In this document: in pieces, positions 1 to 64,000 of the stretch
Numbering within the stretch: position 1 is the first letter of the stretch
How the letters are laid out: the number at the start of each line of letters is the position of its first letter
DNA from: Rhizophlyctis rosea
Taxonomy: Eukaryota; Chytridiomycota; Chytridiomycetes; Rhizophlyctidales; Rhizophlyctidaceae
Assembly: GCA_027596075.1 (NCBI GenBank)
Contig: JADGJC010000082.1
Span: 62,001-126,000 of the forward strand
DNA length: 64,000 bases
Direction of reading: 5' to 3'
The notes under the pieces: model-generated
Database searches by the model: none
What the model was told of the DNA's origin: nothing
Seen by the model: the letters and a program-made list of their open reading frames with translations, nothing else
Position numbers and translations under genes: made by a program

Positions 1-2075
1 GTTGGGTTTCAATTCTGTATTCAGGGATCGAAGGCATTTGGACGCCAGATGTAGCTCACATCCGTTTCGGTTGATCAGGAATCTTTCGTCAGTGCATCGA
101 GCTTGGTCGGTAAGGAAGTCGGCGAAGGATTTGTGGATGACACGAATCTGTTTGTCGGTGACGTACAGGAGGGAGACGATTCGCTTCAGTATATCAGCGA
201 CGGTGTCTTCTTCGACCTGGAGGAGGTGACTAAGACTAGGCAAGTCGAGTGGAATCCGTAGCGTCACAATGGCCCCAACAATCAAGCGGAAGTTTTCGAA
301 CCATCCGTTTCGCTGTTCCCTCTCAATCCCATCGAATGCATTTCCCAGGGTCCGCAAATACATGGCATCCATTGCACGATCCGCCGTCCCAACTTTATCA
401 CCCGCCAACAGGTCGCCGATAACTTCGCTTCCATTCGCGGCACCTCGAAACTCCTCACATGCAAGATACAGCCACATAAAAAGTCCATGTGATCTATCTA
501 CTAGTGCACCGGCCCATTGTGCATTCCTCTCCTTTCCGCCACGACTAAACTTATGTGCAACGCGGTCTTCCGCAAATAACAAGAGATCGGCTCTGTTCCT
601 CGCCTCATCTAAATGTATTTCGTACGGCTCAAATTTCTCCAATTCTTGACGTATGTCGGCTACAGGACGACTGGTCACGAGCAACTTTATATTATTCGGG
701 AGCTTCATTTCTCCAAACGCGCGCAGGAACTGATTCCTCTCCACTGACTCCGAAAGCCCACATTCGTCCAGGGCGTCCAAGACTATGACTGTAAACCGAT
801 CCCGGGCTGCCGACCCCATCAATCCCACCTCCTTCAGGGAATTAACAATCAATTCCCGAAATGACCGAGACACGTTCGCAGTTGCTATGAACCCTGGTTC
901 CTCTTGCTCGAGTTCAAGGATATGTTTGGCAATGCATGAAAACTTTGTAGCAAGTTGATATGCAATGGAGTGAATAAGCTGGACAGGATTGTTGCGGTCC
1001 GCATGATCAGCCTTGCAGATGAAGTATGCTGCAAGATTCACCGCTTCCAATTCGCGTAACTCGTTGATAGCTGTTGCAGCGACCACGGATTTCCCGGCAC
1101 CGGCGAGTGCTGTCAACCAAAATACGGAGGAGGCGGTGCTGTCGGTGGCCCATTTTTTCAAATCATCTAACAACCACTCTCGTGTGCCGGGCAATCGCTT
1201 GTGTGAGATCTCATCAATATCATTCTTCATCTTTCCAATGGCAACCGGGTTGAGGAGAGAATGTAGCTGCTTCAGTCGTTCTTTTTCTTCGGCGGTGACG
1301 GGAGCTTTTTGGCGCGCGAGTTTTGGCTGCACAGGAGGGGAAGCAGGCGGGCTTGTGGGTGGTGTGATGGGCGCGATTGGATGGGACGCACCAATGGACG
1401 TTGCGGATTGTTGTTGTTCATGTCGTCGCAAAGCTTGTTTGATGTTCGTGACTAGCTCTGTCACTTTCTGGTCCCACTCAGCCAACCCCTGGGATAGATC
1501 GATATACACAGCTCCCCCCGTGATGATGTGCGTCCAAGTAAAGGGGCCACAATCCAAACGGACAGGCACAATGATTTGTTTTCGATCGGCAGCAGTGCGC
1601 AGCTCACGCTTGCAGTTGGCTGAATTCTTGACGATGTAAAGAAATATGTTAGTAAACAAAGGATTGATGGATGGACAATGCAGCTCACCTCGTAATGGAC
1701 CGAAAGGAAGGAACAGATAATCTTGCTGTTGCTAATACCATGATACATGCCATCATATAGATCTCCCAGCCGGGGCATTTGCTCCTCATCGAACCATATC
1801 TTGTAGCCCTTCTTTTCAAGCTCTTTCTTGCACTTCACCACTATGTCTTTGTCCGTCCAACTACAATGCACATACTGTGAGTGGTTTAAGGATAACCATA
1901 TATTAGATCGATTCAATTACCAGTAGCTAATCATAACATCAAACTCCTTCGGTTGTTGCGGGGTCGAAACTGTTTGACGGCCAGGACTACGCGCCCGAGA
2001 CGTCCCGCGAGAAGGGACGGGTAGCCTGCTGCCCACAACGGGACGGGCGGGGCCAGTGTTTTGGCCCGAAGACAT
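1..2075 (-). CDS. TIR-NACHT receptor-like protein (5' part; runs off left edge)
   Basis: I rebuilt this gene from three exons: 2075-1921, 1860-1689 and 1626 to beyond base 1. Introns are 60 and 62 nt, GT-AG, and the frame stays open to the edge, giving at least 651 residues. The ATG at 2075 opens a basic, Ser/Pro-rich leader. Residues about 45-170 form a TIR domain: EFDVMISYCWTDKD at its start, then a Y-x2-S-x2-C-x2-E motif whose Glu117 matches the catalytic glutamate of NADase TIRs. A Pro-rich linker follows. The NACHT-type NTPase then shows a Walker A (ALAGAGKS, near 282-289), a Walker B (VIVLDALDECG), a sensor LLVTSRP and the HKSFADFLTD segment seen in fungal STAND proteins. The C-terminal sensor repeats would lie outside the window. 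Known STAND proteins of this layout act in non-self recognition and regulated death; that role here is inferred from architecture only. Confidence 0.85.

Positions 2076-60933: not shown

Positions 60934-64000
<3,067 letters not shown>

Follow-up and report, generated by a model that had tools for sequence, protein, structure and literature searches.

A TIR-NACHT-WD40 locus of the chytrid Rhizophlyctis rosea and its family of candidate NOD-like receptors

According to PMC9815663, Chytridiomycota have NOD-like receptors (NLRs) with a TIR, and a small group of fungal TIR NLRs goes back to the 2020 chapter of Daskalov, Dyrka and Saupe, as cited in PMC9815663 and PMC10197012. The large fungal NLR survey Dyrka 2014 reported none in chytrids (PMC4986451), and an early survey in which 49 fungal species were scanned reported no PF01582 TIR (PMC2939053). 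The HET domain, in which a glutamate is conserved, is described as distantly related to TIR (PMC4986451, PMC9815663, PMC9153377). Outside the fungi, 23 of 58 NB-WD40 proteins of the red alga Chondrus crispus are said to contain a TIR (PMC7145615). Here we analyze a gene of the same general kind in Rhizophlyctis rosea (Chytridiomycota, Rhizophlyctidales), whose assembly is in 634 contigs. The DNA studied, referred to as the window, is a stretch of 64,000 nt (contig JADGJC010000082.1, positions 62,001-126,000); the gene occupies positions 2075 to 1 of its minus strand and runs out over the left edge. Negative positions lie left of that edge on the same contig, and L009 designates the contig stretch read there. 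We consider it probable, at roughly 0.68, that the locus belongs to an R. rosea family of TIR-NACHT-WD40 NLRs whose intact members work as TIR-NLRs; for these members the basis is their domains, the order of the domains and the conserved motifs, from which the working itself is inferred. The genus Rhizophlyctis is unnamed in the text of PMC9815663, and no paper on the R. rosea family was found in the literature on TIR, NLR or NACHT in chytrids or early-diverging fungi, the broader results of which were viewed in part.

Domain build and the catalytic-position glutamate

The joining of a TIR domain to a NACHT-type STAND NTPase, proposed in the first-pass annotation of this DNA, was borne out by Pfam. 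When the spliced protein was scanned, TIR_2 reached 81.5 bits (cut-off 28) and NPHP3_N 108.4 bits (cut-off 24.8), and the Pfam TIR model itself also matched (24.5 bits, cut-off 21.3, E 2.7e-5). The latter model (PF01582), scanned over the genome exon by exon, gave no match, perhaps because introns split the domain. Protein relatives at E<=0.001 numbered 61 among 7999 candidates scored, the best after the gene's own model at 1.9e-237, which is above chance. Clean Walker motifs had also been claimed: the P-loop core GAGKS and a Walker B with the sequence VIVLDALDE are present, with alanine in place of the initial glycine of a classical Walker A. The invariant columns of a 20-row alignment are G285, G287 and K288.

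The sensor had been expected beyond the window. Extension of the contig to the left revealed a WD40 frame of 662 codons (L009 7562-5574) directly downstream of the TIR-NACHT part, which makes the locus TIR-NACHT-WD40 in build. The best 25 of its 29 Pfam families are all WD40 propeller models. A blade-end pattern occurs at 15 places, or 14 once a match lying 8 residues from its neighbour is removed, and the 14 blades are spaced by 38-47 residues, corresponding to about two seven-bladed propellers. Of the parts by which an NLR is recognized, the locus carries an N-terminal effector or signalling domain (TIR_2) and a central NTPase with P-loop and Walker B; its WD40 repeats adjoin the NACHT arm with the frame broken between them, and in the paralogous model P0002 the two are joined. 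Tandem Repeats Finder reported one 8-base unit only in the WD40 part, arrays under about 70% alike being liable to escape it, and in L034 and the L039 WD40 part it listed no units of repeat size.

The motif Y-x2-S-x2-C-x2-E, read earlier as intact, is YENSANCKRE in this gene, with E117 at the catalytic position. Its C-x2-E cysteine and glutamate are unchanged in 10 of 10 aligned TIRs, a chosen set of nine from R. rosea and one from Borealophlyctis that omits divergent TIRs such as that of L047 and includes L033, which is not a NACHT protein. Compared with solved sequences, the TIR profile matched 38 at E<=1, a few of them not TIRs by name; Cat1 was the best (7.5e-9), and RPS4 (2.6e-4) and Roq1 (1.5e-3) were among the others. 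E117 aligns with a glutamate in both plant chains, at position 86 in Roq1 and at position 81 in RPS4. We take Roq1 E86 to be catalytic, and Cat1 is a NAD-cleaving TIR. In the AlphaFold model of P0001, the public model of the gene (906 aa; pLDDT 82.1, pTM 0.69), strands and helices alternate through the TIR block (pLDDT 74-95), and E117 is placed in a helix (residues 112-123) following the third strand (97-104). The profile match, the predicted strand-helix order and a glutamate that follows the conserved cysteine and lies in the helix next to strand three are what would be expected of a NADase TIR. A fold search with the whole P0001 model returned mostly propellers and no TIR chain among the best 50 listed; no query with the TIR alone was made, and this lack is no evidence against a TIR fold. 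PADLOC matched P0001 to PDC-S66 (1.1e-10, residues 34-120) and more weakly to ThsB and Avs1b, and matched P0002 to HEAT-ARM_XIII (1.4e-21) in the WD40 region. All matches of an NCBIfam scan were far below cut-off.

The gene model proposed for the window part stands: the gene starts with an ATG at 2075, and the frame stays open across introns 1 and 2, both bounded by GT-AG (Table 1). The GT donor at the end of exon 2 is found at the same place in 8 of 9 TIR-NACHT loci, the window gene counted, and L047 has no motif match. The exon-1 donor is common to L036, L039, L052 and, judged by translation, L035; L038 lacks a GT at this position, and with the motif used there was no match in L034, L037 or L047. 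Exon 3 continues beyond the left edge to position -299 (L009 7701). A bacterial promoter scan was uninformative for a fungal gene. The next gene leftwards (L009 2864-4882, plus strand) is presumably DEAD-box RNA helicase-like, as judged by eye from its motifs.

Table 1. Positions of the features of the gene (window coordinates, unless L009 is given)
Feature	Position	Strand	Description
Exon 1	1921..2075	-	ATG, N-terminus modelled at low confidence, first TIR strand FDVMISY
Intron 1	1861..1920	-	60 nt, GT-AG
Exon 2	1689..1860	-	mid-part of TIR domain
Intron 2	1627..1688	-	62 nt, GT-AG
Exon 3 (window part)	1..1626	-	TIR end, Pro-rich linker, NACHT NTPase, helical arm
Intron 3	L009 7700-7636		65 nt, GT-AG, then exon 4
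TIR domain	1450..1937 (both introns inside span)	-	residues 47-168, TIR_2 8.8e-23
E117 codon	1603..1605	-	catalytic-position glutamate within YENSANCKRE
NACHT/NPHP3_N NTPase core	667..1188	-	residues 256-429, NPHP3_N 5.7e-31
P-loop core GAGKS	1087..1101	-	residues 285-289

The gene family and its NACHT tree

The R. rosea genome contains at least 23 TIR_2 matches, 20 of them above cut-off and the window gene among them, and at least 9 NACHT matches, all above cut-off. Twenty of the 22 other TIR_2 loci were read with their flanks; 8 of them resemble the window gene in its NACHT part as well as in its WD40 part, so that with the window gene itself the genome holds at least nine TIR-STAND-WD40 loci. 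One of them is represented by a full public model, P0002, in which TIR_2 (75.4 bits), NPHP3_N (107.1) and WD40 (284 bits) all exceed their cut-offs. In Borealophlyctis nickersoniae, a model of 517 aa carries the same TIR_2 and NPHP3_N and is 56% identical to P0001 in alignment; judged from these models, the TIR-NACHT pairing is thus common to two families of Rhizophlyctidales. Protein searches with the TIR alone gave 2 matches among 226 candidates for P0002 residues 1-180, both from R. rosea, and 2 among 254 for P0001 residues 40-185 at E<=1, namely P0001 and P0002; such searches require shared exact words and similar length, so that absence elsewhere is not implied. No close bacterial source that would point to a recent gain was found: a TIR profile applied to 19 prokaryote stretches matched by two peptide patterns gave 4 loci, all in Clostridia metagenome-assembled genomes and with 26-31% identity.

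Other TIR_2 loci of the genome differ in layout. L033 (contig C57, 6257-8395, minus strand) is a single-exon frame of 713 codons; no other single exon of the genome matches TIR_2 as strongly as this one does at 315-423. It carries YENSPNCKREL and, in a scan at E<=5, neither NACHT nor any further Pfam match above cut-off, and is a different TIR architecture. L047 (contig C9, 1817-6424, plus strand) has a divergent TIR_2 ahead of NACHT and WD40, with no C-x2-E seen in the exon read. Short or divergent TIR_2 sequences of another subgroup (YLDKYCLIPGQKWEDGF and similar) are found at L040, L043, L046, L050 and L051; at L050 and L051, P-loop frames come after TIR_2, as seen by eye.

A NACHT tree of 56 rows was built from 61 proteins and 9 loci, leaving out four loci that duplicate P0001-P0004 and ten proteins in which the NACHT match was missing or no longer than 220 residues. 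A 99/94 branch has on one side the ten chytrid TIR rows and six more: P0006, two TIR-NACHT rows from metagenomes (P0041 and P0047), P0045, P0055 and P0056. The opposite side holds nine named Dikarya rows together with unnamed rows; the count takes only rows with a Dikarya species as source name and leaves P0019 and P0021 uncounted. After midpoint rooting, the chytrid TIR label requires 3 changes, and a single change was enough in 0 of 200 bootstrap trees, so that a single origin of chytrid TIR-NACHT is not shown. P0006, an R. rosea NACHT-TPR protein with no TIR match, is nested among TIR-NACHT rows, which suggests domain exchange.

The frame break and the standing of the window copy

The window copy carries a frame break between positions -514 and -438 (61,486-61,562 of the contig), beyond the window. 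The NACHT-arm frame ends at a stop at L009 7488-7486, and the WD40 part is in a different frame that is open only from L009 7562. Apart from this, the frames on both sides stay open over long distances (684 and 662 codons), so that the lesion must be of recent date or else an artefact. NACHT arm and propeller are in one frame in 7 of 8 paralogous loci (L034, L036, L037, L038, L039, L047 and L052), and the eighth, L035 (contig C301), is itself broken, roughly a dozen residues beyond the corresponding place. As a consequence of the break, the plain conceptual product is an 800-aa TIR-NACHT protein that ends at the first stop and has no sensor, and the standing of the window copy as a working receptor is lowered. 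Most likely, this copy was disabled recently within a birth-and-death family; otherwise, the break would be an error of assembly or be bypassed by splicing.

An error of assembly or sequencing in a normal full-length receptor is a possibility that we hold doubtful. The long open flanking frames, the 14 blade motifs that remain recognisable and an assembly in 634 contigs all favour it; however, the break is present in the sequence, P0001 omits 376 nt, bounded by GT-AG in the DNA comparison, rather than reading through the junction, and the similar break in L035 makes decay within the family plausible. We regard as rather improbable a functional product spliced round the break, in which the linker would be changed or the propeller cut short. 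Joins from GT or GC to AG were enumerated, at 35-400 nt for a sole intron and at 15-400 nt for one following intron 3; among the 87 are ordinary-length GT-AG joins that restore an open frame, and P0001 is such a model, but all 87 cut into the conserved junction stretch kept in 7 of 8 paralogous loci, those removing least sequence fall far below the 60-65 nt of the gene's own introns, and P0001 is also without most of the propeller. Slightly less credible again is that the 800-aa protein is made and acts as helper, decoy or regulator in the manner of plant TIR-NB proteins: the product to the first stop does contain a complete TIR and NACHT, and truncated TIR-NBARC proteins are stated to be frequent in plants (PMC9153377), yet the frame break is the sole pointer to such a product. 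The bolder proposal that R. rosea, a flagellated fungus, has a plant-like, NAD-cleaving TIR-NLR immune arm of several paralogues, in which the window copy is kept as a sensorless helper or decoy and gain and loss of WD40 is normal, seems to us rather improbable as well.

Several observations also weigh against a working TIR-NLR family with the window gene as a member. The Pfam NACHT model scored 23.3 bits (E 6.2e-5), below its own cut-off of 26.7, and the gene is absent from the 9 NACHT matches of the genome. The Borealophlyctis model is without the WD40 part, and the nearby break in L035 could reflect family decay or an error-prone assembly. SARM1 is a weak profile match (E 0.28), and certain TIRs that have a glutamate in this position act purely as scaffolds. 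TM-scores for the whole model are low (0.32 to Apaf-1, 0.18 to RPP1), so that the match of the predicted fold holds domain by domain. A TIR that serves as a non-enzymatic adaptor, recruiting other TIR or HET proteins, is unlikely in our judgement, if less so than a spliced or sensorless product: Toll-like receptor TIRs, which are adaptors, match too, and the 22 other TIR_2 matches of the genome are possible partners, but the glutamate is invariant in the ten chosen TIRs and the best solved sequence match is Cat1, a NAD-cleaving TIR.

Proposed working and comparison with known systems

In an intact member of the family, the double WD40 propeller may keep the receptor off and detect either a ligand or a host protein that has been altered. 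Nucleotide exchange by the NACHT ATPase and its oligomerisation would follow, and the clustered N-terminal TIRs could form composite active sites in which NAD+ is cleaved through the residue equivalent to E117. Cleavage might lead to NAD+ depletion or to cyclic ADP-ribose-type signals, and the end point would be a regulated cell death or growth arrest limiting a virus, bacterium or hyperparasite. Nine or more TIR-STAND-WD40 loci in one chytrid, at least one of them with a full public model, make NAD+ cleavage and killing by a bona fide fungal TIR testable. The activity of the HET domain is still described as open (PMC10197012), and the R. rosea TIRs offer a point of comparison beside it. The family also bears on the question of whether TIR-NLR logic was early in fungi or arose independently.

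The chytrid TIR NLRs of Daskalov, Dyrka and Saupe 2020, known to us through the citing papers, are likewise fungal NLRs with an N-terminal TIR. The HNWD proteins of Podospora (HET-E, HET-D, HET-R) share the order effector-NACHT-WD40; in contrast to them, the R. rosea gene has a bona fide TIR_2 and no HET match at E<=0.001 in Pfam, its WD40 repeats are dissimilar at the DNA level where those of HNWD are strongly alike, its host is a chytrid and not an ascomycete, and its NACHT is separated in the tree from the rows of named Dikarya species. Plant TIR NLRs (RPP1, Roq1, RPS4) resemble it in combining a TIR with a STAND ATPase and in the position of the glutamate, and a Foldseek match to RPP1 was obtained. 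The sensor here is WD40 and not leucine-rich repeat (LRR), and the ATPase is of the NPHP3_N/NACHT type in Pfam and not NB-ARC; of the 5 families matched in the TIR-NACHT part and the best 25 of 29 in the WD40 part, none is NB-ARC or LRR. As for bacterial defence, Avs3 was among the fold matches, Avs1b matched weakly over residues 560-624, and Cat1 gave the closest solved TIR sequence, whereas the R. rosea gene is eukaryotic and intron-bearing and shares 26-31% identity with the best bacterial TIR loci found. The TIR-NB-WD40 proteins of Chondrus crispus likewise join a TIR to NB-WD40, in another lineage. The first-pass annotation had seen here a candidate for an undescribed system; given the TIR NLRs stated for Chytridiomycota (PMC9815663), the red algal proteins (PMC7145615) and the several paralogues of the gene, this view is not retained. 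The TIR-NACHT-WD40 kind is already known, and the R. rosea gene is a further member of it.
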